A stretch of 27,932 bases of DNA, taken from positions 1-27,932 of the IMG/VR virus record IMGVR_UViG_3300041809_000637. The stretch is one strand, 5' to 3'. This DNA is from a virus. This document shows, piece after piece, positions 10,447-26,457 of the stretch. The first letter of the stretch is position 1. Each line of letters starts with the position of its first letter. Position numbers and translations under genes: made by a program. The notes beneath the pieces are model-generated. The model was not told the DNA's origin, made no database searches, and worked only from the letters and a program-made list of their open reading frames with translations.

Positions 10447-11182
10447 GTGCTCTTGCTCCTTTTTGAAAATTACCTGCACGATTGATAAAAGCAATGAACA
10501 CATCATAGGGTGTGTTACTTTTTGCTTTTTGACATTCTTTACAGCAAGGAACTACATTGTCCGATGTGTACCCCAAAGAGCTATCTTTACGGTCAACACC
10601 ATTATATACAAATACCCCAGTTCGGCTTGTTGGAGAAGATTTCATTTCCATCGCTGGCGGAAGCCCACAATAATGGCAGTTCTGCTGTGTGAGTTGGAAA
10701 AATTGTTCATTGGTTAATTCCCAACTCAGGTTTCGTTTTTTAGCTCCCCGTTTGTAACCGCTTAAAACTCGATTGCCTCCAGCAACTCCTTTCGGTAGTT
10801 CCTTAGCTTCATTTCTTCGGCACCCCCAGTTTTTGCTTTCCCCGTGGCGAAGATGGTACCCTGACACCACCTGTTCTGTACCACAATCACACTTACAGAC
10901 CCACATCGCCGCTTTGGTGGGTTTGTTGGCCCGTTCAAGAACCACCCAGTGTCCAAAAATACAACCTGTTAGGTCTTCAGCTTTATGGAGCGAGGGTGTA
11001 ATCTGATATGTTTTGCGTAGGGACTCAGATAAGTGTTGCCGGTGTTCTTCAGAGCGTTCTTTACCGCGTAGAGCGGCAGCAATCCGTTCTCGGTGTTGGT
11101 CTGAAAGCCTCCGACCATTAAGACTTTCCCGGATTTTCTGTTTATGTTCATCTGACAACCTTTGCCCTTTGTGCCTACCCAT
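10439..11182 (-). CDS. HNH homing endonuclease with NUMOD3 repeats and zinc module
   Basis: The product is 247 residues from ATG 11182, with a GTG one codon upstream. NUMOD3-type helices open the protein ('RLSDEHKQKIRESLNG', 'RLSDQHRERIAAALRG', 'RSEEHRQHLSESLRK'). A zinc module follows at about 70-122 ('DLTGCIFGHWVVLE ... WVCKCDCGTE ... NWGCRR'). The HNH nuclease comes last ('CHYCGLPP', 'YNGVDRKDSSLGYTSDNVVPCC', 'CQKAKSN'). The nuclease and its C-terminal 'FIAFINRAGNF' are paralogous to the HNH genes at 16374, 24784 and 25902. It heads the minus cassette. The start is preceded by a hairpin that contains its ribosome site. Confidence 0.9.
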   Translation of the reverse strand: MGRHKGQRLSDEHKQKIRESLNGRRLSDQHRERIAAALRGKERSEEHRQHLSESLRKTYQITPSLHKAEDLTGCIFGHWVVLERANKPTKAAMWVCKCDCGTEQVVSGYHLRHGESKNWGCRRNEAKELPKGVAGGNRVLSGYKRGAKKRNLSWELTNEQFFQLTQQNCHYCGLPPAMEMKSSPTSRTGVFVYNGVDRKDSSLGYTSDNVVPCCKECQKAKSNTPYDVFIAFINRAGNFQKGARAHA

Positions 11183-11188
11183 CACTTT

Positions 11189-11207
11189 TACCCCTACAAG
11201 AGGGGTA
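11189..11207 (-). promoter_or_regulatory. Hairpin sequestering the ribosome site of the HNH gene
   Basis: On the minus strand TACCCCT, loop CTTGT, AGGGGTA forms a 7-bp perfect stem. The 3' arm holds AGGGG, which is 8 bases before ATG 11182. The core CCCTCTTGTAGGG is nearly identical to that in the leader of the unrelated GIY-YIG gene at 19256. Confidence 0.7.
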
Positions 11208-11253
11208 GGTAGTCATAAAATCTCCAAGTAGCATAAAAATTTTCCTGAAAAAC

Positions 11254-11283
11254 TAGCCAAAACGTCGGTGTTCCGGGTATACT
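11254..11283 (+). promoter_or_regulatory. Phage promoter, TAGCCA-18-TATACT
   Basis: TAGCCA (11254-11259) and TATACT (11278-11283) are separated by 18 bp. The -35 flank reads ACTAGCCAAAAC, shared with four other sites in the window. The -10 box ends 18 bases before ATG 11301, so the leader is only about 10 bases and holds GGTGGGAG. Confidence 0.8.
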
Positions 11284-11300
11284 GATGGTGGGAGAGAAAA

Positions 11301-12002
11301 ATGACAAGCGAACAGGAAGTGATGGCACTGGAAACGGCGAACGCAGAGGGCTTCCAGCCTAAGCTGATGACCAACCCCAACCTGATTCTAGCCTTCATGC
11401 TGGCTGGAGATGCCACCATCACTTTTCAGAATGCAAAGTCCAAGACCCACCTGACCTACCGGGTGCAGGTCTCTGAACTCACCGAGGCGGAAATCGCTCA
11501 GGGCAAAAAGCCCATCTACTTCGTCAAGCTGCTCACCGGCTCCGACAACGAGAAGGATTACACCTACATCGGCATCATCGCTCCCGACCGCTACAAGAAC
11601 AACGCTCTCGCGTTCCGCACCACTGGCAAGTCCAAGCTGACCATGGACAGCGAGCCCTGCATGGTCATGGCACGGGCGTTTGAGTTCTTCGCTTCTGGCA
11701 AGATGCCCATCGGTCTCGAAGTCTGGCACGAGGGACGCTGTGGCCGCTGTGGACGCAAGCTGACGACTCCTGAGTCTGTCGAGCGTGGCTTCGGTCCCGA
11801 CTGCATCGAAATGATGGGCGGCTTGGCTGGTCTCATGAACTTCTCCGTTCCCGCACAGCCGGTCGAGGCTCCTCGCTTCATCGCTCAGCCTGATGGCTAC
11901 AAGGTCTCTCATGTCATGGTTCCCCCAACGCCGAAGACGCCGAAGGCTATCGTCGCGGCTGTCAATGAAGACCCCGAGATTGCCCGTATGGCTGGGGCGT
12001 AA
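11301..12002 (+). CDS. DUF6011-type zinc-finger protein
   Basis: A 233-residue protein. Residues 30-120 form a beta-rich region ('ATITFQNAKSKTHLTYRVQV', 'KDYTYIGIIAPDRY') that probably binds a ligand or nucleic acid. Residues 144-172 carry 'EGRCGRCGRKLTTPESVERGFGPDC', the CxxCGRxLtxPxSvxxGxGPxC signature of DUF6011, a small zinc ribbon frequent in phage and plasmid proteins of unknown role. A proline-rich linker and a helical tail follow. It has its own promoter and a very short leader, which suggests independent and probably strong expression. GC-rich codon use is smoother than in the nearby endonuclease genes. Confidence 0.75.
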   Translation: MTSEQEVMALETANAEGFQPKLMTNPNLILAFMLAGDATITFQNAKSKTHLTYRVQVSELTEAEIAQGKKPIYFVKLLTGSDNEKDYTYIGIIAPDRYKNNALAFRTTGKSKLTMDSEPCMVMARAFEFFASGKMPIGLEVWHEGRCGRCGRKLTTPESVERGFGPDCIEMMGGLAGLMNFSVPAQPVEAPRFIAQPDGYKVSHVMVPPTPKTPKAIVAAVNEDPEIARMAGA

Positions 12003-12060
12003 GAACGTCAAAAGTGGGCACCTTGCATCTATACAAACTCCAGAGAATCAAAGTAGGGGA

Positions 12061-12144
12061 GCAGTCAAATCTAATCACATTAAGTGGCATGTGAGGCGTA
12101 ATCTCATCAACCCAAATTGCAAACTTTGCAGTATTAACCAGTAG
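12061..12144 (+). other. Start-less reading frame with WHV and CxxC motif, possible gene remnant
   Basis: The 160-base gap between two genes contains an open stretch reading 'SNHIKWHVRRNLINPNCKLC' before a TAG at 12142. The pattern NHxxWHVxRxxxxPxCxxC looks like a conserved small zinc motif rather than noise. No ATG, GTG or TTG with a ribosome site precedes it in frame. It could be a truncated gene, or a fragment of a protein once fused to an upstream gene. Confidence 0.35.
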
Positions 12145-12161
12145 TATTTGGAGGGTTTAAT

Positions 12162-12428
12162 ATGAAGCCAGAAACTCAGTCCATCTTGTCTCTAACCGAA
12201 GCCTCGTATGACAAGTACAATGCCATCCTGCCCGTGATTAAGCAGAAGCTTGGTCGCGACCGCGCTCCCGTTTTTGAAACCACGCTGGTGGAGGAGTTGC
12301 CGCTTACCACGTGCCGTCGTGCGTATCGCACGGCCATCATGGTTGCTTGCGGCGAGTCAAAGGTGTATCGTGAGACGGAGCACCAGAAGCCGGTGCCTGA
12401 GCCGAGGAAGGTGAAGCCCAAGAAGTAG
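12162..12428 (+). CDS. Hypothetical 88-residue protein
   Basis: The ATG is preceded by TTGGAGGGTTTAAT, a good ribosome site. The protein is mainly helical ('SILSLTEASYDKYNAILPVIKQKLG') with a middle 'FETTLVEELPLTTCRRAYRTAIMVACGE' and a basic proline-rich tail ('PVPEPRKVKPKK'). A helix-turn-helix is conceivable but not convincing. It is followed closely by an intrinsic terminator. Unknown function. Confidence 0.65.
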   Translation: MKPETQSILSLTEASYDKYNAILPVIKQKLGRDRAPVFETTLVEELPLTTCRRAYRTAIMVACGESKVYRETEHQKPVPEPRKVKPKK

Positions 12429-12444
12429 GCGGTGTGGAGAATCG

Positions 12445-12480
12445 AAACGGTCTGAGAAAAATTCTCAGACCGTTTTCGTT
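12445..12480 (+). terminator. Intrinsic terminator
   Basis: A perfect 14-bp stem (12445-12458 with 12462-12475) with an AAA loop is followed by TCGTTT. It lies 17 bases after the stop of the 12162 gene and 9 bases before the next -10 box, so it separates two transcription units. Confidence 0.85.
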
Positions 12481-12488
12481 TGGCGTGG

Positions 12489-12494
12489 TACACT
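12489..12494 (+). promoter_or_regulatory. -10 box for the HicA-like gene
   Basis: GGTACACTA matches the GGTATACTA context of the other promoters, and the box ends 18 bases before ATG 12512, the same spacing as at 11278 and 17691. The -35 position falls in the terminator stem and does not match TAGCCA, so the box is less certain. Confidence 0.45.
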
Positions 12495-12511
12495 ACTGGT
12501 AGGAGTGCCCT

Positions 12512-12949
12512 ATGGCTGACCCCAAGACCTCGCTGGAACGATTGATTGAAGAACACGGCGGTGTGCTGGTTAGACAAAAGAAGCACAAGGTGTACCGCTT
12601 CCCGAATGGAGCTACATTCACGGTTGCCAGTACCCCGGAGTGCCCACTTGCGTATGACAATGCACTGGCATTTTTGAAGACCCTCTTGGGTGTCCATTCC
12701 CCCAACCGAGGAACCCCCGGCGAACGCCGCGAGAAGCAGCCCAAGCGAAAACCCGTGGGTAGTGGAGCCCCGCTACCCTTTAGACTCGAAACCCCCGCAC
12801 CAGAAGCAAACACATGGAAGGAAAAATTGGCGATGGCTGTGATTCAACTGACCCCGCCACAAGCAAAACAGCCTGTCGCCCCACCGCTGCGAAAATTGAC
12901 CTTCGAGCAACGAATGCTTCGAGCCGGAGTTAAACGGCTGGAAGACTAG
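12512..12949 (+). CDS. HicA-like domain protein with Pro/Lys-rich C-terminus
   Basis: A 145-residue protein. Residues 6-66 ('SLERLIEEHGGVLVRQKKHKVYRFPNG', then 'FTVASTP', 'NALAFLKTLLG') resemble the HicA fold, a dsRBD-like module whose histidine in 'KH' cleaves mRNA in true HicA toxins. The usual GxSH is here KKH, so activity is uncertain. The second half is basic and proline-rich with a helix at the end. No HicB partner is adjacent, so I favour a phage nucleic-acid-binding protein over a toxin. It starts after AGGAG, and its TAG stop is the first three bases of the next promoter's -35 box. Confidence 0.55.
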   Translation: MADPKTSLERLIEEHGGVLVRQKKHKVYRFPNGATFTVASTPECPLAYDNALAFLKTLLGVHSPNRGTPGERREKQPKRKPVGSGAPLPFRLETPAPEANTWKEKLAMAVIQLTPPQAKQPVAPPLRKLTFEQRMLRAGVKRLED

Positions 12950-12976
12950 CCAAACCTCAGCAGCATCAGGTATACT
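12947..12976 (+). promoter_or_regulatory. Phage promoter, TAGCCA-18-TATACT
   Basis: TAGCCA (12947-12952) and TATACT (12971-12976) are 18 bp apart. The TAG of the -35 box is the stop codon of the upstream gene. The -10 box ends 21 bases before ATG 12997. Confidence 0.8.
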
Positions 12977-12996
12977 AGAGTGAAAGGTAGGGTATC

Positions 12997-13905
12997 ATGG
13001 AGGAAGTTCAAACTATCCAGCTTGACCTTGTGAAGTCCACAAAACGGTCGCTCGTCTATTCCAACGCCGCATTGGGAATATCAAACCTCAAAGTCCCCAA
13101 ACCCTTGGTGGACAACAGTGATGCTCCAGTTCGCATCGGCGTTACCTTTGAGGTTGCTTCTGATGCTATGTCCGCCGAGAGCAGTATCGGCGACCTTCGC
13201 ACCAAATTGGTGGGAAGGCTCCAGAAGGACAAAGAGTTGCGAGGCCGAATCAGAAAGCTGGAGAAGACCTGCCAGCATGATTGGGCTACCAAGGAAGGCA
13301 CTGACGAGCGGCGTTGCTTGCTGTGCGGGAAGAAGGATAGGGTCAAGGAGACTGCTGGTTTTGTCAAGTGTGAAATCTGCTCTGAATCCAAGCAAATCGG
13401 ACCCGATGTGAAGTTGAAGGGCTGGTGGGCAGTCAAGCAGAAGAAGGAAGGCTTCGCTTCTCGTGTTCTCAAGACCGGACTCAAGCCCGGAGAACGAGCA
13501 GCGTGTGGCATTGGTCACTTGATGACTCTGTGCGAACGTGCGGCCTCCGGTTCACTGGACAAGACTGTGTACCCCGACAACAAGCCGAAGCCGGTCGGTT
13601 TGACCGAGGCTACTGTGTTGAACAATGAAGGCAGAACACCCCCGGCTGTGCAGTTTGAAGACGCACCGCTGCCTGAGCCCGAGATGGTCAACACACCGAT
13701 TATTGACGATGTGCCTCCTGACCCAACCATCGTACTGGAACCCGATGTTCCAACCATGGTGTATGAGGAGCCAGTCACCAAGTTTCATGTACTCCCACTC
13801 TTGGTGCGACTTGTCAACAAGCACATGCGCCCACCACTTGATGAGTTTCCATTCTCGGAGTCTGACATGCCGAACATGGGGGTGTGGGATGAACGAACCA
13901 CTTGA
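12997..13905 (+). CDS. Hypothetical protein with zinc-ribbon centre and Pro/acid-rich C-terminus
   Basis: The 302-residue protein has an N-terminal domain (1-70) with 'TIQLDLVKSTKRSLVYSN' and 'PVRIGVTFEV'. A charged helix (about 68-90) is followed by cysteine pairs 'CLLCGKKDR' and 'CEICSES' with 'CQHDW' upstream (about 92-130), consistent with one or two zinc sites. Residues 220-260 are proline- and acid-rich and likely disordered. It has its own promoter. Its last 17 bases overlap the SLOG-like gene. I do not recognise the family. Confidence 0.65.
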   Translation: MEEVQTIQLDLVKSTKRSLVYSNAALGISNLKVPKPLVDNSDAPVRIGVTFEVASDAMSAESSIGDLRTKLVGRLQKDKELRGRIRKLEKTCQHDWATKEGTDERRCLLCGKKDRVKETAGFVKCEICSESKQIGPDVKLKGWWAVKQKKEGFASRVLKTGLKPGERAACGIGHLMTLCERAASGSLDKTVYPDNKPKPVGLTEATVLNNEGRTPPAVQFEDAPLPEPEMVNTPIIDDVPPDPTIVLEPDVPTMVYEEPVTKFHVLPLLVRLVNKHMRPPLDEFPFSESDMPNMGVWDERTT

Positions 13906-14571
13906 TGATGAAATAGCCTCACTCTACTCTCGTCTCAACAAGGCAGACTGGTCGGCTGTTTTCGATGCGTTATTTGCCAACTGGTGTCCTTACCCCGACG
14001 AGGCGTATGCTCGAAAGGTGGGCTGGCCTGTCAACACCGATGGAACAATCACCACTCCCGGCATTGGGCGTGTGCCTTCTCGTGAACTCATCGAAGTGGA
14101 CAAGCTTGAGAGGGTGTTCAAGTTGGAAGACAGACGGGACAGAAAGCGTTCTGTTCACGTCGGCTTTACTGGCACGAAGATTGGAATGCAGCCAAACCAG
14201 CGGTTGGAATTGGCTGAGTACCTTTCATACCTCAAGAATCTTGGGTTCACTCACTTCCACCATGGGGTTGCATTGGGTCCGACGCTCAGGCGGCGAAGCT
14301 TGCCAAGGCTCTTGGCTTCATTCTTGTTTGTCACCCCGGTCACCCCAAAGACAAAGAGAACACGATGTATCGGGCGTTCACTGACTTCAACGATGTGATG
14401 CACGAAGTTAAACCATTCATCAAACGTGACAAAGAAATTGTGGACGCGGTTGAGACTATGATTGCCACGCCAGCCGGAGCCGAACAGGTTCGCTCTGGAA
14501 CGTGGACAACGATTCGCTATGCGAAGAAGCAACTGAAGCCGGTTCACATTATTATGCCGAGGGCAGCATGA
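13889..14571 (+). pseudogene. SLOG/DprA-like Rossmann protein, broken by a frameshift at 14264-14267
   Basis: From ATG 13889 (GGTGTGGG upstream) the frame encodes 'VHVGFTGTKIGM', then 'LGFTHFHHG', the pattern 'GFTGTxxGM ... HHGxCxGAD' of SLOG nucleotide-binding proteins. At 'CAT GGG G' the matching continuation 'GCIGSDAQAAKLAKALGFILVCHPGHP' moves to the -1 frame and runs to 14571, ending with 'KPVHIIMP'. The joined protein would have about 227 residues. One missing G in the four-G run explains the break. Frame zero instead gives a basic nonsense tail to 14398. GGG to TGG re-pairing is poor, so programmed slippage is less likely than mutation or sequence error. The C-terminal half overlaps the next ATG by ATGA, which shows that its frame was recently used. 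Confidence 0.7.
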
Positions 14572-14819
14572 CAGACCAGTACGTAGAGCGCAACGTGTTA
14601 GACACCAATGGAATCGTTCAGGTGTTCCGTGACTATTGGTGGTGGTGCATTGAAGGCGACCCGAAACGGGCATTGTTCTTTTGCATGTTAAGGGGCATAG
14701 GTTCGCCTCAATGTAATCTCAAGCGGGAGATTGCCGAGGCTATCGGCGAACGCTTGGGACACAACAAATGTGCGAAGCTTGTGCAGATACCTCTTGCTTT
14801 AGTCCCGTGGGAGGGTTGA
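14568..14819 (+). CDS. Hypothetical 83-residue protein
   Basis: The ATG at 14568 overlaps the TGA of the SLOG-like frame. The protein starts 'MTDQYVERNVLDTNGIVQVF' and has an aromatic patch 'DYWWWCIEGDPKRALFFC', then helices ('LKREIAEAIGERLGHNKC'). No catalytic signature is seen. Its stop overlaps the next start (TGATG). Function unknown. Confidence 0.65.
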   Translation: MTDQYVERNVLDTNGIVQVFRDYWWWCIEGDPKRALFFCMLRGIGSPQCNLKREIAEAIGERLGHNKCAKLVQIPLALVPWEG

Positions 14820-14950
14820 TGAAATTACTACTGATTTTATTCATCATTCAGACCATCGTGATTGCCCTCATGAGTCAAAACATCAAACTGCTCCATCGGC
14901 GGGTCTCGCGGCTGGAGAAGAAAGAGAAAGACGACGATGGACGAGTTTAG
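14819..14950 (+). CDS. 43-residue single-span membrane protein
   Basis: The ATG at 14819 overlaps the previous stop and has GGGAGGGTT upstream. Residues 2-18 are a hydrophobic helix (KLLLILFIIQTIVIALM). Residues 24-43 are basic then acidic and coiled-coil-like ('HRRVSRLEKKEKDDDG'). Such bitopic small proteins are typical of phage lysis regulators or membrane adaptors, but there is no lysis context here. Its end overlaps the next gene by 14 bases. Confidence 0.6.
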   Translation: MKLLLILFIIQTIVIALMSQNIKLLHRRVSRLEKKEKDDDGRV

Positions 14951-15176
14951 CGTTTGTCAGTTCTTCGATGATGGAACGTCGGAGTATGTTCGCAGGTTTG
15001 TGTCTCCTGAATCTGCTGTAGAGGCATTCAAGCATTACACCAACAGTGTGGCTTCACGCATGGGTATGGTGCCTCGTGTCATCATCACCGATGGTAGAGA
15101 TTGCATTGCCGCCGAGTGGCAGTACGGTAAGGGAATTGTGTTTCCACCTGAGTGGGTGGGTGCCGTTCCGAAATAG
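14937..15176 (+). CDS. Hypothetical 79-residue protein
   Basis: It begins inside the end of the preceding small gene (GAGAAAGACGACG upstream). It looks like a compact alpha/beta protein: 'FSVCQFFDDGTSEYVRRFVSPESAVEAFKHYTNSVASRMG' followed by 'VPRVIITDGRDCIAAEWQYGKGIVFP'. This strand-helix-strand order is like small phage accessory proteins. No known family recognised. Confidence 0.65.
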   Translation: MDEFSVCQFFDDGTSEYVRRFVSPESAVEAFKHYTNSVASRMGMVPRVIITDGRDCIAAEWQYGKGIVFPPEWVGAVPK

Positions 15177-15192
15177 TCAGTATTGAGTATCC

Positions 15193-15906
15193 ATGGCGAC
15201 TAAAGCGAAGGTTCACGGCGACCACTCCCTGCGGATGAATTGGGCAGGGCAGTTTCCTCACCTTGTTGAGGACACCGATGTGTTCAACCGTATGCCAACC
15301 TCTCGCCAGATGGAACTCCGGGCAACTCACGAGTTGATTTCCAACAACCCCAAGGGCCAATTGTTCCTTATCTACGACCCCTCCACGCGACTACCATACC
15401 CCGGCCAGCTACTTTACAGCGATATTGAAAAGAAGCTGAAGGAGAGTCGCAAGGCTTTACCCGAAGTTCCAGCCGGATACCGATACACTGTGCCCAACGG
15501 AGTGTCACGCAGCGTGATGTCGTATGCGTACGCTCCGGAGCCAACTGAAGACCAAGCGTATCAAATCCTTCTCGCCTTCGAAAATCATGTCACGCTGGAG
15601 CGGCTCATTGAAGACTGCACGTACGATAGAAGACTACTCTCTGACAAGCCAGTGGATGGTGTCATGGCCTTCGTTTGGCGGCTGGCGAGATACTTGAGTG
15701 GAGCCGACAACTGCATCCCTTCCACGGCGTTTATTGACCTGATTGACGGTACTTCACGGCTCACCCATCTTCGAGTAGACATCGCACGGGTGAAGACTCT
15801 CACAAAGTTCCTTCAGGACAAGGCAGAAGAACTTGTAACCATTGTCGGCGGCGACCGGCACGCAGGGGCTCTTCGTTGGGCTCAAGCTTCAGGAGTGACT
15901 AAATGA
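15193..15906 (+). CDS. Hypothetical 237-residue protein
   Basis: The ATG at 15193 lies 16 bases after the previous stop; the ribosome site is weak. The first 100 residues look structured ('QMELRATHELISN', 'GQLFLIYDPSTRLPYPGQLL'), with helical regions later ('TEDQAYQILLAFENHVTLERLIEDC', 'VKTLTKFLQDKAEELVTIVGG'). No nucleotide-binding, zinc or membrane signature is visible. The stop overlaps the next ATG (ATGA at 15903). Unknown function. Confidence 0.65.
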   Translation: MATKAKVHGDHSLRMNWAGQFPHLVEDTDVFNRMPTSRQMELRATHELISNNPKGQLFLIYDPSTRLPYPGQLLYSDIEKKLKESRKALPEVPAGYRYTVPNGVSRSVMSYAYAPEPTEDQAYQILLAFENHVTLERLIEDCTYDRRLLSDKPVDGVMAFVWRLARYLSGADNCIPSTAFIDLIDGTSRLTHLRVDIARVKTLTKFLQDKAEELVTIVGGDRHAGALRWAQASGVTK

Positions 15907-16337
15907 AAGAGATGCATGGTGTAGCATTCCTTTTCAGCGAGACTGGTACCGAGGGCGGTTGGTGGGCGATGCATGAAGACGGTTTCATGATGGAGGATGG
16001 TTTCCACTGGCAATACGAGGGGCCCCGGGAATTGCAAGAAGGCGACGAGTTCACTGTATATGCCGAAGATGGTAGTGTACTCTGGACTGGAACTATAAAG
16101 TACGACAAGAAAACCAACCTCAGGGCACGTCAAGTAATGCGTAAGGGAAAACTGGTTAACTCTCGCGACTGGAAGCAGCAAGTGGTTGACGGGGTGTGGG
16201 TTCACTGGCTTCAATCTGGAGTCAAGCCTGAGGTATGGTCGGAGCTATTCGTCGGCCACAAGCGGTGTCTGCTACGTCGCGAAGAAAAATTTGGAGAAAT
16301 ACTAGCCAAAACCGTGTTGAGTCCCGTATTATTCTAG
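15903..16337 (+). CDS. Hypothetical 144-residue protein whose last codons form a promoter
   Basis: It is coupled to the upstream gene by ATGA. The protein is tryptophan-rich in its first half ('EGGWWAMHEDGFMMEDGFHWQYEG') and has a small beta-domain feel ('GDEFTVYAEDGSVLWTGTIKYD'), then helices. The last residues, 'EILAKTVLSPVLF', are encoded by the -35 to -10 region of the next promoter (16303-16332). The tail may therefore reflect DNA-level rather than protein-level selection. Function unknown. Confidence 0.65.
   Translation: MKEMHGVAFLFSETGTEGGWWAMHEDGFMMEDGFHWQYEGPRELQEGDEFTVYAEDGSVLWTGTIKYDKKTNLRARQVMRKGKLVNSRDWKQQVVDGVWVHWLQSGVKPEVWSELFVGHKRCLLRREEKFGEILAKTVLSPVLF
16303..16332 (+). promoter_or_regulatory. 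Phage promoter, TAGCCA-18-TATTAT, inside a gene tail
   Basis: TAGCCA (16303-16308) in the context ACTAGCCAAAACC and TATTAT (16327-16332) are exactly 18 bp apart. It lies within the last 35 bases of the preceding coding region and would transcribe the HNH gene at 16374 through its leader hairpin. Confidence 0.7.
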
Positions 16338-16350
16338 TAACTGAACTATC

Positions 16351-16371
16351 AGCCCCCTAAGTATGGGGGCT
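16351..16371 (+). promoter_or_regulatory. Hairpin holding the ribosome site of the HNH gene
   Basis: AGCCCCC (16351-16357), loop TAAGTAT, GGGGGCT (16365-16371) form a perfect 7-bp GC-rich stem, then TT and ATG 16374. The GGGGG that could act as ribosome site is in the 3' arm. The TTT after the stem also lets it act as a weak terminator. Confidence 0.65.
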
Positions 16372-16373: not shown

Positions 16374-17078
16374 ATGAAAGTTGGAGATTTAACAGGTCAA
16401 AAGTTTGGCTACCTCACCGCAATTCGGAGAGATAGTACCAAACGTAGGGTGTGGGTTTGCAGTTGTGATTGTGGTAAAGAGTGCTCGATAGAGGGCGGCA
16501 GACTCAAGCGTGGCATCCGAACCAGTTGTGGTTGTCGCGGTGTGGAAGACATTACAGGTCAGCGATTCGGGTACCTCACTGTGTTGCGACTGAAAGAGAC
16601 CAGACGCCAAAAAACCTTCTTTGAGTGTTTGTGCGATTGTGGCAATACTGCTGTTGTTGGCAGGTACAAGCTGACTCACAGCAGCACGAGGAGTTGTGGG
16701 TGTCTGTACACCAAAACACGGGAGAGTGAGCGAAAAGAGTTTGGAGCCTCGGCTGCAAGGTCGGTACTCAAAGAGTATCGAAGAAGTGCAAAGGTTAGAC
16801 ATCTGGTGTTCAGTTTAACTGATGAGGAAACACAGGAACTCATCAAAGGCAATTGCTTTTACTGTGGGGTTGAACCCCAACGGAAAGTGGAATTGAAAAC
16901 TGGATATGGTTTCTTCATGTGCAATGGTATTGACCGGCTTGACAACACGAAGGGGTATCTCTCCGGTAATGTTGTACCGGCGTGTAAAAAGTGCAACTAC
17001 CGGAAACAGGCAGAATCTGAAGAGGAATTTCTCAATTGGATTAAGCAGGTTGCCACACACAGATTGGGGATGGCATGA
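16374..17078 (+). CDS. HNH homing endonuclease with duplicated zinc module
   Basis: A 234-residue member of the zinc-plus-HNH family. Two copies of the zinc module stand in tandem: residues about 4-51 ('DLTGQKFGYLTAI ... WVCSCDCGKE ... TSCGCRG') and 55-110 ('DITGQRFGYLTVL ... FECLCDCGNT ... RSCGCL'). These probably provide DNA contacts. The HNH nuclease (about 158-215) shows 'CFYCGVEP', 'CNGIDRLDNTKGYLSGNVVPAC' and 'CNYRK'. The C-terminus 'EFLNWIKQVATH' is family-typical. It overlaps the peptide deformylase start by ATGA and has its own promoter and leader hairpin. Confidence 0.9.
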   Translation: MKVGDLTGQKFGYLTAIRRDSTKRRVWVCSCDCGKECSIEGGRLKRGIRTSCGCRGVEDITGQRFGYLTVLRLKETRRQKTFFECLCDCGNTAVVGRYKLTHSSTRSCGCLYTKTRESERKEFGASAARSVLKEYRRSAKVRHLVFSLTDEETQELIKGNCFYCGVEPQRKVELKTGYGFFMCNGIDRLDNTKGYLSGNVVPACKKCNYRKQAESEEEFLNWIKQVATHRLGMA

Positions 17079-19208: not shown

Positions 19209-19226
19209 TCCCTAAACTTTTCAACT

Positions 19227-19255
19227 ATGGCTCCCTCTTGTAGGGAGCCATTTTT
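19227..19255 (+). terminator. Perfect 10-bp hairpin plus T5: terminator and ribosome-site trap
   Basis: ATGGCTCCCT (19227-19236), loop CTTGT, AGGGAGCCAT (19242-19251), then a T-run to 19255 and ATG 19256. As a terminator it would end the kinase transcript. AGGGAG in the 3' arm is also the only ribosome site for the GIY-YIG gene, at the correct 8-base spacing, so the fold would block its translation. Confidence 0.85.
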
Positions 19256-20020
19256 ATGTACGTGTACGTTATTCGAAACAGTGCAACAGGTAAGGTCTAC
19301 ATTGGTCAACACAAAGGGACTAATCTGAAGAAATACCTTCAGATGAAACTGAGCCAAGCTGAATACGAACTAAGACGCAAGGGTCATGGTCGAGGGTCTC
19401 ATCTTTTTAACTCTATGCGTAAACACCCCAAAGATGTGTGGTCAATCGAGCCTCTCATGGAAGTTGACACCAAGGAAGAGCTAGACCGCCTAGAGACTCT
19501 TCTCATTGCTTTCTATGACACTCGCAATCCTCAGGTTGGTTACAACATTTGTAAGGGTGGGGAGGGGTTTACAGGTACTCACACTGATGAGTGGAGAAGG
19601 AACCATAGCGCAAAAATGAAGGGACGTGTATATTCCCCTGAGACTATTGCTAAGATGAAAGCCGCCCCTAAGAGTGAAGTTCAGTTGAACAATCTCAAAC
19701 GAGCGAGAGACCCTGATGTTGCAGCTAAGAGAGCAGAAGGTTGTTCAACCCCTAGCTGCCGTGTCAAATTATCTGAAGCTGGTAAACGTCAGTGGGAGTG
19801 TGGACCCACCCCTGTGCAGTTGGAGCAATTGACGACGGCGAGAACCAACAGGTGGGAAAAGTACAGAAGAGAGGACACGCTGACTACTCAGATTGTTGTT
19901 TTGCGAAAACAGGGGTTGACACAGAGAGCCATAGCCCTCCAGTTGGGGGTGGGAAAAAGTACAGTCAACAGTCATTTGCAAAAATTTATGGAGGAAAATA
20001 GTAGCCAAAACCCGCTCTAG
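19256..20020 (+). CDS. GIY-YIG homing endonuclease with NUMOD3 and helix-turn-helix
   Basis: A 254-residue endonuclease located between the kinase and ligase genes. The GIY-YIG domain (about 1-100) begins 'YVYVIRNSATGKVYIGQ' and includes 'ELDRLETLLIAFYD' with the conserved Glu, and 'GYNICKGGEG'. NUMOD3-like repeats follow ('WRRNHSAKMKGRVYSPETIAKMK', 'CRVKLSEAGKRQW'). The C-terminus holds a helix-turn-helix ('LTQRAIALQLGVGKSTVNSH', about 223-242). The start codon touches the T-run of the upstream hairpin. The last codons ('SSQNPL') are the -35 region of the next promoter. It probably targets the flanking kinase/ligase intergenic site in related phages. Confidence 0.92.
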   Translation: MYVYVIRNSATGKVYIGQHKGTNLKKYLQMKLSQAEYELRRKGHGRGSHLFNSMRKHPKDVWSIEPLMEVDTKEELDRLETLLIAFYDTRNPQVGYNICKGGEGFTGTHTDEWRRNHSAKMKGRVYSPETIAKMKAAPKSEVQLNNLKRARDPDVAAKRAEGCSTPSCRVKLSEAGKRQWECGPTPVQLEQLTTARTNRWEKYRREDTLTTQIVVLRKQGLTQRAIALQLGVGKSTVNSHLQKFMEENSSQNPL

Positions 20021-20031
20021 CCCAGTATACT
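20002..20031 (+). promoter_or_regulatory. Phage promoter, TAGCCA-18-TATACT, overlapping the endonuclease tail
   Basis: TAGCCA (20002-20007) and TATACT (20026-20031) are 18 bp apart. The -35 box lies in the last codons of the GIY-YIG gene and the -10 box just after its stop. It gives the RNA ligase independent transcription despite the inserted endonuclease and terminator. Confidence 0.8.
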
Positions 20032-21322: not shown

Positions 21323-21324
21323 GC

Positions 21325-21612: not shown

Positions 21613-22208
21613 TGGACTTCACACGATTCAGGGGACACTACCTTCTCCATGACCGGGGCACTCCAGAAGATGTGGAGAAGCTGGCGGGTATCATGGCAAC
21701 TAAGGTAGGCACGGTCGAGGGCTTCTTCAAGCGGCCTCGCCCTCCCTATGAGTACAAGGAGAACGCATCCGCTTTGGAGTCCTATCTCTGGCTTCGGTCG
21801 TACCTTCTGCCTGAGATACCCTGCAATTCAGTTATCTTTGGCATCGGGCTTGGCGGGTTGCTTGCTGCTAAGGTACAAGAGGACTTCCCGGCTAAGGGGT
21901 TGTCTGTGGTAGCTGTCAATGCCCCCACTTTCGAGGGCATTATAGGACTCAGTAATCTAGTGTCCAATCGAGTTGCACTCTATAGTAGCGTTTATGCTCC
22001 AGTCGCTGCCCGCTGCGAATGGGACCGTTATGCAGGTCAAGCCTATGATGTGTCGTGGCTCCAGCATGGCATCAAGAACACCAAGTACGGTCTAGCCTAT
22101 CTGCTTGCATCCTATATGCAAATCGAGAACCTCGCCGCCGAGGTTGCTTCATTCACAGACGCCGCACCAGAGATTCCAAAGGCTCAGGGTGCGGTTGGCT
22201 CTATCTAA
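21612..22208 (+). CDS. Alpha/beta-hydrolase-like protein, nucleophile missing
   Basis: The 198-residue protein (ATG 21612) has 'SVIFGIGLGGLLAAKVQEDFP', which aligns to the nucleophile elbow 'GHSLGG' of lipases, but with Gly in place of the catalytic Ser. A following 'VVAVNAPTF' and a late 'WLQHGIKNTKYGLAYLL' resemble the loop after the elbow and the catalytic-His region of lipase-like folds. I infer a degenerate hydrolase fold that may bind rather than cleave. The similarity is by eye and could be coincidental. Confidence 0.45.
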   Translation: MDFTRFRGHYLLHDRGTPEDVEKLAGIMATKVGTVEGFFKRPRPPYEYKENASALESYLWLRSYLLPEIPCNSVIFGIGLGGLLAAKVQEDFPAKGLSVVAVNAPTFEGIIGLSNLVSNRVALYSSVYAPVAARCEWDRYAGQAYDVSWLQHGIKNTKYGLAYLLASYMQIENLAAEVASFTDAAPEIPKAQGAVGSI

Positions 22209-22260
22209 ATTTCCTCAATAAAAACCCCAAAAGTTGGGTATTGCATGGTCGGAGGGTAGA

Positions 22261-22506
22261 ATGAAGTTCTACTTTAAGACCCTGCTACCGTACTTCCTCA
22301 TGCTGGTTCTGAACTACTACGTTGTAAAGTATTCGTTCATCGGCATGACAGCCCCTTATGACTGGTCATTCGCAGCGGGAATCCTAGCCCTTATGGCTCT
22401 CGTTGTAGCTGACGTGAAGTTCATTATCTCGCGGGTGAAGAAGATTGCATCTTCACTCGTAGACCCAACCAAAGAGGAAACCCATGAAGACGACCCGTCT
22501 GCTTAG
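22261..22506 (+). CDS. 81-residue membrane protein
   Basis: I chose ATG 22261, which has GGAGGG 4 bases upstream; a longer frame from 22234 has no ribosome site. Two hydrophobic helices (about residues 6-30 and 39-58) are followed by a basic then acidic cytoplasmic tail ('SRVKKIASSLVDPTKEETHEDD'). A small hairpin (CCCAA/TTGGG) lies between this gene and the preceding one. The last 23 bases overlap the SPFH gene, suggesting that the two membrane proteins act together. Confidence 0.65.
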   Translation: MKFYFKTLLPYFLMLVLNYYVVKYSFIGMTAPYDWSFAAGILALMALVVADVKFIISRVKKIASSLVDPTKEETHEDDPSA

Positions 22507-23398
22507 TGTTGCGGCATTGGCGGTTTCAATGCTGTGCGTAGTTTCACTCACGAGCTGCACCCGTATCGGCCCCGGACATGTCGGCATCAAAGTTGACATG
22601 GCGGGTAATGACAAAGGCGTTTTGAATTCCACAGCATCCACCGGCTGGGTATTCTACAACCCATTCTTCACTTCGGTGATTGAGTATCCCACCAACATGC
22701 AAACTGTTCACTGGACGAAGAGCACCGATGAAGGCAAGCCTTCCGATGAGTCAGTGACATTCACCAACAAGGATTCGATGGCTATCAACGCCGACGTGAA
22801 CCTTTCCTACATCCTTCAAGCTGACAAGGTACCGGCGTTCTACGTGAAGTTCTTGGCGAAGGACATCGAAGTGTTCACCGATGGCTATCTCCGCAACGTG
22901 ACGCGCAACTGCATGAACGATGCAGCCGGGAAGTATGAAATCGCACAGATTATGGGCGACAACTCAGCCTTCTTGAAGGATGCCAAGACTTGCCTTGAAC
23001 AGCAAGTGAGTCAGTATGGTGTGGTGATTGACACACTGGGTTTGACAGGTGCTCCGCGTCCGCCGCAAGTTGTGCTCGACCAAATCAACTCGAAGAATCA
23101 GGCTCAGCAACTCGCACTTCAGAAGCAGATGGAGTTGCAGCAGGTTCAGGCCGACGCCAATAAGCAGGTCGCTGCGGCTGAAGGTCAAGCCAAGGCAGCT
23201 ATCGCAGCGGCTCAAGGTGAAGCAGAAGCCAACCGTATTCGTACTGCCAGCATCACGCCGGTCATTCTTCAGAACAAGGCACTGGATAACCAGCACGACG
23301 CCATCTGGCGTTGGAATGGGCAGATGCCAGCAACCGTGGTCAACAGTGGCGATGGCAAGAGCGGCTTGCTGTTCAACATCCCCACCAACAAGCAGTAA
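22484..23398 (+). CDS. SPFH/Band-7 (prohibitin-like) lipoprotein
   Basis: The 304-residue protein has a lipoprotein signal: 'MKTTRLLSVAALAVSMLCVVSLTSC' with lipobox LTSC, so lipidation at Cys 25 is predicted. The SPFH domain follows (about 28-210: 'RIGPGHVGIKVDM', 'STGWVFYNPFFTSVIEYPTNMQTVHW', 'INADVNLSYIL'). A long Gln/Ala-rich coiled coil (about 205-262: 'NQAQQLALQKQMELQQVQ', 'AEGQAKAAIAAAQGEAEAN') matches flotillin/prohibitin helices that build ring oligomers. In cells such proteins scaffold membranes and control proteases. In phage they may modify the envelope or inhibit superinfection (inference). Confidence 0.88.
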   Translation: MKTTRLLSVAALAVSMLCVVSLTSCTRIGPGHVGIKVDMAGNDKGVLNSTASTGWVFYNPFFTSVIEYPTNMQTVHWTKSTDEGKPSDESVTFTNKDSMAINADVNLSYILQADKVPAFYVKFLAKDIEVFTDGYLRNVTRNCMNDAAGKYEIAQIMGDNSAFLKDAKTCLEQQVSQYGVVIDTLGLTGAPRPPQVVLDQINSKNQAQQLALQKQMELQQVQADANKQVAAAEGQAKAAIAAAQGEAEANRIRTASITPVILQNKALDNQHDAIWRWNGQMPATVVNSGDGKSGLLFNIPTNKQ

Positions 23399-23405
23399 GC
23401 TTGGA

Positions 23406-23432
23406 AGCCCTGAGACTCCCCATCTCAGGGCT
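23406..23432 (+). terminator. Hairpin after the SPFH gene
   Basis: AGCCCTGAGA (23406-23415) and TCTCAGGGCT (23423-23432) form a perfect 10-bp stem with a 7-base loop. No T-run follows, so termination would be weak or factor-assisted. It also covers the CAGGG near the start of the small ORF at 23441. Confidence 0.55.
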
Positions 23433-23440
23433 CTACCCTC

Positions 23441-23587
23441 ATGGCAACAAACAAAAAACAACAACCCGAAGAGTCGTGGTCAATGGTTGAAGAAACCGGA
23501 CCAGAGACGTGTGAGACTTGCGACGGCACAGGTTTGTTCGCAGGTAGAAAGTGTAAGGAGGCACTGCGATGGCAAGGGCTACTTTGA
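23441..23587 (+). CDS. 48-residue protein with CxxCxGxG motif
   Basis: From ATG 23441 the frame encodes a lysine/glutamine-rich start ('MATNKKQQPEESW') and 'TCETCDGTGLFAGRKC', a DnaJ-type CxxCxGxG zinc knuckle with a third Cys. The ribosome site is poor and covered by the preceding hairpin. The frame overlaps the next gene by 19 bases. The motif makes it more likely than chance to be real. Confidence 0.5.
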   Translation: MATNKKQQPEESWSMVEETGPETCETCDGTGLFAGRKCKEALRWQGLL

Positions 23588-24060
23588 ACAAGGTGTCAAC
23601 AACTGAAATCAGAAAGCAGCTTCGGGACATCGTTCTCACCCGAGAGAATCGTCCTCGTTCATCGAGAGAAGATGCAATGACCGCTCCTATCAACCGTGAC
23701 CTCCCGGTGATTGTGACCAGACGTGCATCAGGGAAGACTACAGGTCTGGTACACTTCATTGGTGAGCGTACCCTACTTTTGCCGGAGTCTGAGACCATAG
23801 GTGTGCTGTGCCCCACTGAGGGTATCGCTCAAGAGTTTCTTCACCAATTCAAGACCCATTTTCCCACTCTGCAAGAGCCGGTCGTGCTTACTATCGACAG
23901 AGCGATGGACAGGATGGTGGGACGGAAGTTCCATGAAGTTTATGCAGAGGAGGTCTTCTTGATGTACACCGACCGCCTCTCCGAAGTTTGTGCCCATTTT
24001 CCGGTTGTCGCCGGGGTAGGCACAATTGAAGCACCAACTACCATCACGATTCGTGTATAA
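23569..24060 (+). CDS. Putative P-loop protein, truncated ATPase-like
   Basis: A 163-residue protein with AAGGAGG upstream of ATG 23569. 'PVIVTRRASGKTTGLVHFI' (about 46-64) looks like a Walker A motif with the initial Gly missing (xxxRASGKTT), as in some phage terminase/helicase-like NTPases. 'IGVLCPTEGIAQEFLHQF' follows, then 'KFHEVYAEEVFLM' as a possible Walker B. The size is much below a full helicase or terminase, so it could be a small packaging, primosomal or regulatory ATPase. The assignment rests on the P-loop alone. Confidence 0.55.
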   Translation: MARATLNKVSTTEIRKQLRDIVLTRENRPRSSREDAMTAPINRDLPVIVTRRASGKTTGLVHFIGERTLLLPESETIGVLCPTEGIAQEFLHQFKTHFPTLQEPVVLTIDRAMDRMVGRKFHEVYAEEVFLMYTDRLSEVCAHFPVVAGVGTIEAPTTITIRV

Positions 24061-24061
24061 T
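24056..24061 (+). promoter_or_regulatory. -10 box TATAAT before the coiled-coil gene
   Basis: GTGTATAATC spans the stop codon of the previous gene and lies 34 bases before ATG 24095. No -35 box of either TAGCCA or TTGACA type is found at proper spacing, so the call is tentative. Confidence 0.35.
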
Positions 24062-24094
24062 CAGATGGTAAGACTGATTGAAGGGGACCATTCT

Positions 24095-24481
24095 ATGGCC
24101 GAAAACGAAACACCCACTCCTGAGCCGACGACCGAGCCGACTCCCGCCGCCACCGATTCAACCGCACCAGCCTCTTCCTCCATTCCTCCCGCCGTTGCTT
24201 TGTGGCAGGTTGTGAAGGATGCCGCTACCACCAAGGGTCAAGCGGTTCGTGAACTGGTCATTGGCGAACTCACTCAACAGGAAATCGTCAAGCGCAAGGA
24301 TGCACAGGAAATCGTCAAGCGCAAGGATGCCGTCATTGCCCTCTTGGGCAAGTACGAGGAGAAGACCAAGGAACTCAAGAAGCAGGAAGGCGCTTTGGCG
24401 AAGAAGGAATTCGACGCCGAGGGCAAGGAAGCTTTGAAGGCTATCCGCGACGAGATTCGGATACTGAAATCCCAGTATTAG
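24095..24481 (+). CDS. Coiled-coil protein with Pro/Thr-rich N-terminus
   Basis: ATG 24095 is preceded by GAAGGGGACC. The 128-residue product begins with a disordered Pro/Thr/Glu segment (1-31), then a long charged helix (about 33-128). A nine-residue unit QEIVKRKDA is repeated exactly twice, encoded by a 27-bp tandem duplication. The rest ('LGKYEEKTKELKKQEGALAKKEF') is coiled-coil-like. It may be a structural or scaffolding accessory; no family recognised. Confidence 0.65.
   Translation: MAENETPTPEPTTEPTPAATDSTAPASSSIPPAVALWQVVKDAATTKGQAVRELVIGELTQQEIVKRKDAQEIVKRKDAVIALLGKYEEKTKELKKQEGALAKKEFDAEGKEALKAIRDEIRILKSQY
24278..24331 (+). repeat. 27-bp tandem duplication
   Basis: The units 24278-24304 and 24305-24331 are identical except for the last base. 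The length is a multiple of three, so the coiled coil is simply lengthened by nine residues. Confidence 0.95.
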
Positions 24482-24499
24482 GGGACAGAGGTATTTCCC

Positions 24500-24742
24500 A
24501 TGAGTTACACTCCCGGCACCCTTCCAGCAGCAGTTGGAGTGGGCGTTCTCGTATTCCTTGTGTTGGCGGTTGTTATCGTCATCATTACGTGGCCTGTCAT
24601 GTGGCTGATTAACTGGCTCTTCCTGCCGTCTGTGCTTCTGGCTCTGTTCGGCGTGGCGAAGCTGAGTTTCTGGCAAACGTGGGCTTTGCTGTTCATCTGT
24701 GGTACCCTGTTCAAGAGTACCAACGTCAATTCTAGCAAGTAA
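24500..24742 (+). CDS. 80-residue two-span membrane protein
   Basis: ATG 24500 lies 18 bases after the previous stop, with GGGACAGAGG upstream. Hydrophobic helices cover about residues 10-34 (VGVGVLVFLVLAVVIVIITWPVMW) and 42-70, with a polar end ('KSTNVNSSK'). It has the size of small phage membrane proteins, including class II holins. There is no lysis gene next to it, so I do not assign a role. Confidence 0.65.
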   Translation: MSYTPGTLPAAVGVGVLVFLVLAVVIVIITWPVMWLINWLFLPSVLLALFGVAKLSFWQTWALLFICGTLFKSTNVNSSK

Positions 24743-24745
24743 ACA

Positions 24746-24799
24746 AGTCCGTAAGCTATCAATATCATTGTTAGAGGTTTGATATGAAGCTTACGGACT
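24746..24799 (+). promoter_or_regulatory. 12-bp inverted repeat enclosing the HNH start codon
   Basis: AGTCCGTAAGCT (24746-24757) is perfectly complementary to AGCTTACGGACT (24788-24799). The second arm is codons 2-6 of the HNH gene. The ribosome site AGAGG (24773-24777) and ATG 24784 lie in the 30-base loop. Confidence 0.8.
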
Positions 24800-25359
24800 A
24801 TACAGAACAAAAGTTTGGTCGTTGGGTTGTTACGGCGTCGGCGGATAGACCAGCGGGGCTCAAATCTAAAGGGAGATTCTGGTCAGTAAAATGTGAGTGC
24901 GGTGCAGTGAGTGTGGTTTCAGGGGACTCACTACTCAGGGGGTTTAGCACAAGCTGTGGCTGTCGCCGTCAGGAGGAGGCTGTAGCTAGAAGGCTGCTGC
25001 CTAATAATAGAGGGTTGTTTAACAACTTACGATGGATGTATAAGCACAACGCCATCAGACGCGGACTCAAGTGGGAACTCACTGGGGAGGAGTTTGATAA
25101 ACTGATAGTAAAGCCTTGCATTTATTGCGGCTCAGATTTACTAGGGGTGTTTAGAAAAACAGAGAATAACAGCAGTAAAAAAGAGAGAGTTCTCTATTAT
25201 AATGGCATTGACCGGGTTGATAACAGTCGTGGGTATGTGTCAGGTAACGTGGTTCCCTGTTGTAAGTTTTGTAATAGAGCAAAAAAGGATTCTACCGAAG
25301 CTGAGTTTACGGCTTACTTGAAAAGGGTGGCTAATTTTATAAAAGGAACTATGCAGTGA
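24784..25359 (+). CDS. HNH homing endonuclease with zinc module
   Basis: A 191-residue zinc-plus-HNH family member. Zinc module: about residues 4-60 ('DYTEQKFGRWVVTAS ... WSVKCECGAV ... TSCGCR'). Nuclease: about 108-170 ('CIYCGSDLLG', 'YYNGIDRVDNSRGYVSGNVVPCC', 'CNRAKKD'), with the family end 'EFTAYLKRVANFIKG'. The 'LT' of the usual DLTGQ motif is altered to 'DYTEQ'; this region is also the paired arm of the leader stem, so RNA pairing may have shaped the codons. It overlaps the next gene (GTG 25356). Lower GC than its neighbours suggests separate origin. Confidence 0.9.
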   Translation: MKLTDYTEQKFGRWVVTASADRPAGLKSKGRFWSVKCECGAVSVVSGDSLLRGFSTSCGCRRQEEAVARRLLPNNRGLFNNLRWMYKHNAIRRGLKWELTGEEFDKLIVKPCIYCGSDLLGVFRKTENNSSKKERVLYYNGIDRVDNSRGYVSGNVVPCCKFCNRAKKDSTEAEFTAYLKRVANFIKGTMQ

Positions 25360-25871
25360 GAGATAGACGTGAAGTATCGGAGCGGTTCGGCGACCCTGCA
25401 AACTTCGAGTTTAGGGGACAATTCTACCATTCGTCCACCCTTACGAAGTGCGCCCTATGCGGACGTGACATCCGCAACGTCTACACCTTGCGCTCCCCGC
25501 AAGGCCGCTCCGTCCCGTCTGGCGAGTGTTGCTTCCCTGTTTTTCAAAAGTGGAACCCGGAAGCACACACTCGCCTCGTAGCGGCCAAGACCCTCTTGGG
25601 TGCTTACGATGACGGGATTCGGAGCGATGTGAAGACGTACAATGCCACTGGAGACTATGACCACCGTCTCAGTGAGTGGCGTAAGCTAAAGAGACAGGCT
25701 ATGAGGCTCATCCGTGAGCACAAGAAGGCTACAGGCACCGACTGGCTCCCCAAGCCGCTCTATGACCTCAAGGCAGAGGCTGACAAGGCACCCGGCAAGA
25801 CGACTCGCTGGTTCAAGTCCCATCTTTCCGTTCTTCGTAACATGCTAAAATCCTCCGCTGTGAGTTCCTAA
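25356..25871 (+). CDS. Hypothetical protein with DUF6011-like zinc ribbon
   Basis: This 171-residue gene starts at GTG 25356, overlapping the HNH stop (GTGA), with AAAGGA upstream. Residues about 30-62 read 'TKCALCGRDIRNVYTLRSPQ' then 'VPSGECCF', a CxxCGR...GxxC zinc ribbon related in pattern to the DUF6011 gene at 11301. The rest is helical and basic ('RKLKRQAMRLIREHKKATG'). It sits between two members of the same HNH family, one intact and one dead. The zinc-ribbon role in DNA or protein binding is inferred. Confidence 0.65.
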   Translation: MRDRREVSERFGDPANFEFRGQFYHSSTLTKCALCGRDIRNVYTLRSPQGRSVPSGECCFPVFQKWNPEAHTRLVAAKTLLGAYDDGIRSDVKTYNATGDYDHRLSEWRKLKRQAMRLIREHKKATGTDWLPKPLYDLKAEADKAPGKTTRWFKSHLSVLRNMLKSSAVSS

Positions 25872-25886
25872 TTTTACAACTCCTAC

Positions 25887-25901
25887 TTTGAGGTACTCAA
25901 A
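25887..25901 (+). promoter_or_regulatory. Hairpin over the ribosome site of the dead HNH gene
   Basis: TTTGAG (25887-25892), loop GTA, CTCAAA (25896-25901) abut ATG 25902. The GAGG site at 25890-25893 is in the 5' arm and loop. The stem is AT-rich and weaker than those at 19227 and 16351, but perfect. Confidence 0.55.
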
Positions 25902-26457
25902 ATGGGTAAGCTGGATTTAACAGGGCAGAGGCATCGTACTTGTTTTTTTAGATGGTTCAGCCAATGCTAGAACCAACCAGTGACCATACGCTAGAACCAA
26001 CCAGTGAGTGGTTAGGTGCGACTGCGGTACAGAACGGTCGGTGCCACAGTCACGCTTACGTGGGGGCAAGAGTCACAGTTGCGGTTGTCGTTTTCGAAAT
26101 CGAAAAACTAGTGGCAGGGGATTAAGGAGCCTTGTACTGTGGTCATACAAACACAATGCTGGGGTAAGAGGCTATTCGTGGGACTTAGCCGATGATGAGG
26201 TGTACCAACTATTCGAATCTCCATGTCATTATTGTGGGGCCGTTGGTTCCAATTGCAAGACGAAAAAGAAAAGAACACCCTACTATTACAATGGCATTGA
26301 CCGTGTGGATAATCAAGTCGGGTATACACTAACAAATGTTGTTCCGTGTTGTGGGCTTTGTAACGAGTTCAAAAGAGGGATGTCCTATGCAAAGTTTATC
26401 GCATATTTGAATCAAGTTGCAGTATTTCGAAGTAGTGAGAGGTCACCACTTACATGA
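25902..26457 (+). pseudogene. Decayed zinc-plus-HNH homing endonuclease
   Basis: ATG 25902 begins 'MGKLDLTGQR', the family start, then loses frame after about 10 codons. About five bases of the expected 'FG' codons appear deleted. The next frame continues 'GIVLVFLDGSANARTNQ', then TGA where Trp is expected, then a 24-bp duplicated segment with a second TGA, then 'VVRCDCGTERS ... HSCGCR'. The nuclease part is intact: 'CHYCGAVG', 'YYNGIDRVDNQVGYTLTNVVPCC', 'KFIAYLNQVAVF'. GTG 26008 could still give a 149-residue N-truncated protein lacking half of the zinc module. Its end overlaps the next gene by ATGA. It is the fourth member of the family in this window. Confidence 0.8.
25966..26007 (+). repeat. 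Direct repeat of 18 bp, offset 24 bp
   Basis: GCTAGAACCAACCAGTGA occurs at 25966-25983 and 25990-26007, with six bases between. Both copies carry the same in-frame TGA, so the stop arose before the duplication. Confidence 0.92.

Follow-up and report, generated by a model that had tools for sequence, protein, structure and literature searches.

Why should hairpins that enclose a ribosome-binding site recur before unrelated homing endonuclease genes within a single stretch of viral DNA? The question is raised by the IMG/VR virus record IMGVR_UViG_3300041809_000637, which we analysed as a whole (27,932 bases, 50% G+C, possibly a genome fragment; hereafter the window) and which carries eight homing-endonuclease-like genes, named below by the position of their start codons. 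A sequence-only reading of this DNA had placed such hairpins before four of them (11182 on the minus strand, 16374, 19256 and 25902) and had proposed a common, phage-level control. The explanation that we consider probable is a portable, co-evolving leader whose hairpin silences read-through translation: free-standing endonuclease genes would carry their own segment of ~35 nucleotides (nt), made up of a hexamer (RACTWY, i.e. [AG]ACT[AT][TC]) lying ~33 nt 5' of the start codon at the foot of the hairpin, the hairpin itself with the ribosome site in its 3' arm, and the start codon. On read-through transcripts from upstream the hairpin would form and block translation, and insertion into a long operon would then entail neither early nor high endonuclease output.

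For each of the 45 gene starts in the window we computed the energy of the best simple stem ending 0-12 nt 5' of the start, and scored the folding of the whole leader against dinucleotide shuffles (z). The three most stable stems of the 45 precede endonuclease genes (19256, -16.9 kcal/mol; 16374, -14.3 kcal/mol; 11182, -9.3 kcal/mol), which account for only 8 of the leaders (chance of holding all top three ranks C(8,3)/C(45,3), ~0.004), while at positions sampled on both strands stems of -9 or better were found at 2.6% and of -15 or better at 0.2%. In all three, the sole purine-rich ribosome site is situated within the 3' arm: the 19256 stem (ATGGCTCCCT/AGGGAGCCAT) reaches its energy alone and its whole leader has a z of -4.2, that of 16374 (AGCCCCC/GGGGGCT, whole-leader z -2.3) offers merely GGGGG as a ribosome site, and that of 11182 (TACCCCT/AGGGGTA) is locally clear, with a flanking CCTACC able to pair with the start-codon region too. 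The sequence-only reading was right that ribosome sites are hidden before unrelated endonucleases (GIY-YIG at 19256, HNH at 16374 and 11182), and it passed a refutation test that it had set, since ordinary genes in the window have weaker leader hairpins. Its fourth case did not hold: the stem at 25902 has 6 A/T-rich base pairs (-2.5 kcal/mol, z = -1.0, rank 14 of 45), with GAGG in the 5' arm and loop, and stops interrupt the gene. It also overlooked the strongest structure of all, before 24784 (z = -6.3), whose 12-bp stem is one of only two perfect stems of at least 12 bp with a loop of up to 45 nt in the window. A stable leader structure that includes the only ribosome site was therefore found at four of the eight endonuclease genes (19256, 16374, 11182 and 24784; the pseudogene 25902 is not counted); it was not found at 2017 (z +0.3) or 25902, and was weak at 27552 (minus, z -0.7) and 8091 (minus, z -1.8), the latter of which abuts its upstream neighbour.

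The pairing is kept by evolution. Two alignment-based scans added 79 GIY-YIG and 80 HNH loci. Within the GIY-YIG subfamily to which 19256 belongs (proteins starting M[FYH][IV]Y), 34 distinct leaders had a median folding energy of -12.1 kcal/mol, as compared to -6.7 in 885 control genes drawn from the same loci (p = 9e-10), and a probability of ribosome-site pairing of 0.99 vs 0.55 (p = 3e-6). The measures were written down before a later scan, which used a different alignment and returned 28 further distinct leaders with closely similar values (-12.2 kcal/mol, p = 8e-9; pairing 0.98 vs 0.55, p = 7e-11). As MAFFT put the 3' arms out of register when aligning the larger leader groups (A6, A7), we resorted to a swap test, in which the 5' half of each leader was joined to the 3' halves of the others. 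Across 53 GIY-YIG leaders (no two more than 80% identical) the native combinations averaged -12.6 kcal/mol and the mixed ones -7.0 (permutation standard deviation 0.37, a distance of ~15 standard deviations), whereas native and mixed halves of control genes did not differ; that native halves fold better than mixed ones implies that the arms evolve together. Furthermore, three relatives (L033, L065 and L126) keep the 10-bp, 5-nt-loop geometry of 19256 with other arms; pairing is intact in each of the 40 cells of these four stems, and at three pairs both sides have changed. At the level of the sequences compared, these results show that selection has kept the leader structure in this subfamily by compensatory change, and we hold with high confidence that the hairpin is selected and, by its predicted pairing, hides the ribosome site; that it represses translation is likely. 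The effect extends, more weakly, to other endonucleases picked for RACTWY (-7.9 vs -5.9 kcal/mol; none of 5000 permutations as low), a set sorted by crude motifs that includes a few non-endonuclease genes. The GIY-YIG subfamily itself is almost confined to viral contigs, its best matches among 84,980 bacterial and archaeal species (one genome each) being at most 34% identical. In L065 (about 954-978) the loop reads ACAAG, the reverse complement of CTTGT in the 19256 loop; the top of the hairpin looks as though it had been inverted.

The leader also accompanies its gene to new places. With the 19256 hairpin as search pattern we recovered, beside chance matches, three further contigs (L032, L098 and L007) that have this leader ahead of GIY-YIG genes; at least its last 32 bases are identical to those of the window and up to 42 can be aligned at 93% or more. 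The route to these identical leaders was the exact 13-mer CCCTCTTGTAGGG, which has 31 matches in viral contigs; since most of them are unrelated, it was dropped as a mark of the family. Similarity further upstream is restricted to the window and L032 (part of G026, the closest relative found, a 31-kb contig with a kinase 70% identical), which have the kinase gene in common; the genes upstream in L098 and L007 are unrelated to the kinase and to each other. L032 has leaders identical to those of the window for both 16374 and 19256, another contig (G014) keeps the order peptide deformylase, kinase, RNA ligase but lacks the two endonucleases as well as the two hairpins, and a third (G028) has a 64%-identical relative of 16374 together with its leader at the deformylase junction. 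No close relatives of 11182 and 24784 were found. These comparisons of contigs show that the leader comes along with the endonuclease gene. The expectation that leaders are kept where the endonucleases are was borne out, and of the proposed phage-level control the recurrence of hidden ribosome sites stands, the control being carried by the endonuclease genes and not a property of each phage locus. Within L007 (7700-8628) we also noted that the leader and first four codons (MFIY) continue into another GIY-YIG-like reading frame, which appears to be a remnant.

These same comparisons bear on a reading in which each hairpin serves the gene upstream as an intrinsic terminator and has an endonuclease gene behind it only by chance. 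No site in its half of the window scores better as a terminator than the 19256 hairpin, which is followed by TTTTT; a few relatives have a T-run, and the record of phage phiXaf18 labels an endonuclease leader as 'terminator'. Yet the combination of a G+C-rich stem with a T-run, present at 19256, has only a short T-run at 16374 and none at 11182 (which follows a divergent gene); among 53 distinct relatives TTTT occurs in the last 9 nt of 6, while 42 have the ribosome site in a 3' arm. Moreover, the hairpin is missing at the two sites of G014 that lack the endonuclease, and is identical behind unrelated genes, which speaks against the hairpins being old terminators of their neighbours. An ancestral terminator was accordingly rejected on the two empty-site comparisons and the portability, and the terminator reading is largely refuted; a dual role is possible for 19256, and we regard the reading as improbable. 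Even less probable, to the point of being very unlikely, is that the hairpin acts as DNA, for instance as an end or insertion signal of a mobile element: it does sit at the 5' end of the inserted unit, but its arms vary freely while pairing and ribosome site stay, a pattern more in keeping with RNA pairing than with a nuclease recognising the site, and at the 3' end we noticed no structure to match it.

Leaders of this kind have precedents. Structures that hide the ribosome site are known for I-TevI, I-TevII, I-TevIII and segB of phage T4 and for mobE of phage Aeh1 (Edgell, Gibb & Belfort 2010, PMC2988022), so that the view that such silencing is known singly has to be given up: recurrence in one genome, among both GIY-YIG and HNH enzymes, was already on record. 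In T4, late promoters give rise to endonuclease transcripts that miss part of the structure (PMC2988022), and the late genes e, soc and 49 have inhibitory leader structures by which read-through transcripts hide the ribosome site (PMC3014915). The present leaders resemble the T4 endonuclease cases in that a stable RNA structure would hide the ribosome site of several endonucleases per genome, of both GIY-YIG and HNH type (PMC2988022). They differ in that T4 has recognised middle and late promoters, whereas here a promoter is only suspected (at RACTWY); in that most T4 cases are intron-borne, whereas these genes are free-standing and their leader can be traced between loci; and in that the phages described here were found by protein similarity only. 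Aeh1 mobE is likewise a free-standing HNH gene with a hairpin that lowers translation, but it is embedded in a ribonucleotide reductase gene, and PMC2988022 and PMC3014915 report no RACTWY-like element for it. The T4 genes e, soc and 49 share the hiding of the ribosome site in read-through transcripts but are phage genes and not mobile elements (PMC3014915), and seg43 of Aeromonas phage 25 has a very stable hairpin directly before the endonuclease gene, with the ribosome site outside the stem (PMC2988022). Among named phages we identified leader hairpins of related endonucleases near the start codon in Xanthomonas phages PhiXhv-2/PhiXhv-7 (GIY-YIG; stem 12 bp, z -6.9) and phiXaf18 (HNH) and in Pseudomonas phage MR14 (GIY-YIG; stem 15 bp), of which only phiXaf18 and PhiXhv have a 3' arm that is clearly G-rich over a run of bases; no reports testing the hairpins of PhiXhv, phiXaf18 or MR14 were found, and such a hairpin was not seen in crAss-like cr1_1, Kolpuevirus 'frurule' or Rhizobium phage P10VF. 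On the structural points that can be judged from sequence the present leaders match the I-TevI/mobE type. The hairpin class is hence already known; what is new is the portability, the breadth outside T4-like phages, the demonstrated co-evolution and the RACTWY element.

RACTWY, present in the window before 19256, 16374, 11182 and 27552, was found in 24 of the 34 leaders of the first GIY-YIG set (118 of 885 controls) when counted over wider positions, and in 25 of the 28 leaders of the later set (108 of 1969 controls) at -37 to -26, a range slightly wider than the pre-noted -37 to -29. It is kept even where it falls outside the stem. A conserved leader peptide was rejected as its explanation: in the leaders viewed, its frame relative to the gene varies and its codon is always RAC and never RAT, which indicates conservation at the nucleic-acid level. 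Among HNH genes it occurs in 4 of 16 with an opposite-strand neighbour, 9 of 59 separated by a gap and 0 of 40 abutting the neighbour, which is suggestive, for HNH only, of a tie to genes that need their own promoter. AGTATT, which many leaders have in the loop, was rejected as a fixed promoter, as it is not universal.

The further step of the explanation, the weaker one, is that RACTWY would be the core of a late promoter, giving transcripts that would begin at the loop and, being without the 5' arm, would leave the ribosome site accessible, in the manner of T4 I-TevI. Release by a late promoter at RACTWY is a possibility that we advance tentatively. More doubtful still is the full reading of RACTWY and hairpin as a portable ~35-bp 'late switch', a promoter-and-lock cassette that would silence read-through and start productive late transcripts; we consider it similarly doubtful that such a cassette is common to, and exchanged by, GIY-YIG enzymes, several HNH types, endonuclease VII-like enzymes and some virion genes of non-T4 phages. 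When RACTWY is taken as a -10 box with 6 nt to the start of transcription, 31 of 35 leaders have the predicted start no more than 2 nt away from the loop; this is suggestive of the geometry by which the 5' arm would be dropped, a geometry that arises in part by construction, RACTWY and hairpin both being anchored to the start codon. Several other observations also weigh against the proposed explanation, in whole or in part. RACTWY resembles, to our knowledge, no known promoter consensus, and could equally mark the first bases of the transcript or an RNA signal. The sole recognisable promoter of 16374 lies upstream of the whole hairpin, which its transcripts would keep. The 62 leaders of HNH relatives at large did not differ from controls, and a leader hairpin as a rule for all HNH relatives (or all endonucleases) was rejected on that ground; at 11182 the whole-leader z is only -0.7, its shuffles folding well too. 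Finally, leaders of one family share ancestry, by which the p-values are rough and overstate independence (a problem that the swap test and the unrelated insertion sites lessen and do not abolish), and the control genes are crude open reading frame calls.

The position of the 16374 promoter fits a simpler reading, namely that the hairpin damps translation constantly so that a toxic or costly nuclease stays scarce, timed release playing no part. We regard this as a real possibility that falls short of being the expected one: damping alone leaves unexplained why RACTWY is conserved at the 5' foot even outside the stem, and a poor ribosome site would be a simpler means to the same end. A different reading makes the leader a general late-gene control element (promoter and hairpin) of these phages, used by virion genes and endonucleases alike. 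It draws on a modest RACTWY peak at -36 to -25 before non-endonuclease genes, among them, in other contigs, a tail protein gene (phrog_2048) and a gene for a virion protein, and on contig L018, in which GCTCCCTCTTGTAGGGAGC occurs in the leader of a gene for a 678-aa collagen-like protein, with the same CTCCCTCTTGTAGGGAG hairpin core as 19256. On the other hand, the non-endonuclease genes with RACTWY showed only marginal co-evolution of the hairpin in the swap test (p 0.04-0.05) and homologous virion genes are mostly without the motif, so that we judge this reading rather unlikely. In L018 the collagen-like gene (GxxGxx repeats; its product looks like a virion protein) and a phrog_2048 tail protein gene, at 5311 and 8713 (minus), have RACTWY-hairpin leaders.

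The features of the window discussed here are collected in Table 1. The endonuclease identity of the leader-bearing genes rests on protein family and homology, and homing is predicted; a Pfam search of the 16374 product gave no HNH match above the cut-off.

Table 1. Positions of endonuclease genes, leader hairpins, RACTWY hexamers and a promoter-like site in the window
Feature	Position	Strand	Remarks
GIY-YIG genes (starts)	2017, 19256	+	
HNH-type genes (starts)	8091 (-), 11182 (-), 16374, 24784, 25902 (broken), 27552 (-)		
GIY-YIG endonuclease gene, C-terminal helix-turn-helix	19256..20020	+	PF01541 7e-5, PF13384 2e-5
HNH-type endonuclease gene, CxCDCG zinc-ribbon repeats	16374..17078	+	homologous to annotated phage HNH endonucleases
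NUMOD3 + HNH-type endonuclease gene	10439..11182	-	PF07460
HNH-type endonuclease gene	24784..25359	+	homology
Broken HNH-type endonuclease gene	25902..26457	+	interrupted early by stops; an 18-bp sequence stands at 25966 and again at 25990
19256 hairpin ATGGCTCCCT-CTTGT-AGGGAGCCAT	19227..19251	+	AGGGAG ribosome site within 3' arm; then TTTT ATG
16374 hairpin AGCCCCC-TAAGTAT-GGGGGCT	16351..16371	+	3' arm holds sole purine run
11182 hairpin TACCCCT-CTTGT-AGGGGTA	11189..11207	-	AGGGG within 3' arm
24784 perfect 12-bp stem	24746-24757 / 24788-24799	+	encloses ribosome site and ATG; 3' arm in first codons
Weak 25902 hairpin TTTGAG-GTA-CTCAAA	25887..25901	+	z -1.0
Weak 27552 hairpin TCTCT-AAATAGA-GGAGA	27558..27574	-	z -0.7; GACTAC at -33
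RACTWY (AACTAT), foot of 19256 hairpin	19223..19228	+	identical in L032, L098, L007
RACTWY (AACTAT), before 16374	16344..16349	+	motif count
RACTWY (GACTAC), before 11182	11209..11214	-	motif count
Phage promoter-like site TAGCCA-N18-TATTAT	16303..16332	+	5' of 16374 hairpin; conserved in L032

The backbone genes of the window encode a clamp loader, peptide deformylase, polynucleotide kinase, RNA ligase and an SPFH/lipoprotein-like product, and within 2715-5033 lies an intein with a LAGLIDADG_3 domain, where the homologous gene of G026 (L282) is continuous and without intein. A DNA-level search of the first 25 kb against cultured phage records gave no match, and an Rfam search of the window matched no family. 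The promoter-like site before 16374 is part of a family of plus-strand sites, TAGCCA(AAAC)-N18-TATACT/TATTAT (11254-11283, 12947-12976, 16303-16332 and 20002-20031), and WACTAGCCAAAAC, when up to 2 mismatches are allowed, was counted 6 times where 1.06 would be expected; the copy at 20002 shares bases with the final codons of 19256 and stands ahead of the RNA ligase gene, which may be compared with the promoters embedded in T4 seg genes. The longest perfect stem of the window is a 14-bp hairpin (AAACGGTCTGAGAA-AAA-TTCTCAGACCGTTT, 12445-12475) located 3' of the gene at 12162-12428 and probably a terminator, and a tandem repeat with a 20-bp unit (GGTTTCTTGCGCCCCACTTG) occupies 739-817. A 140-kb relative (G001, L274-L280) has an unusually dense endonuclease load, with 17 HNH-type matches and at least six GIY-YIG genes.

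Taken together, these observations extend a trick known from a few endonucleases of T4-like phages to phages that are known from metagenomes alone, in which the leader is conserved, mobile and strongly supported by evolutionary evidence. They provide in RACTWY a concrete motif that may represent the late-promoter core of uncultured phages, and they suggest a route by which selfish endonucleases may enter operons of essential genes without harm to the host phage.

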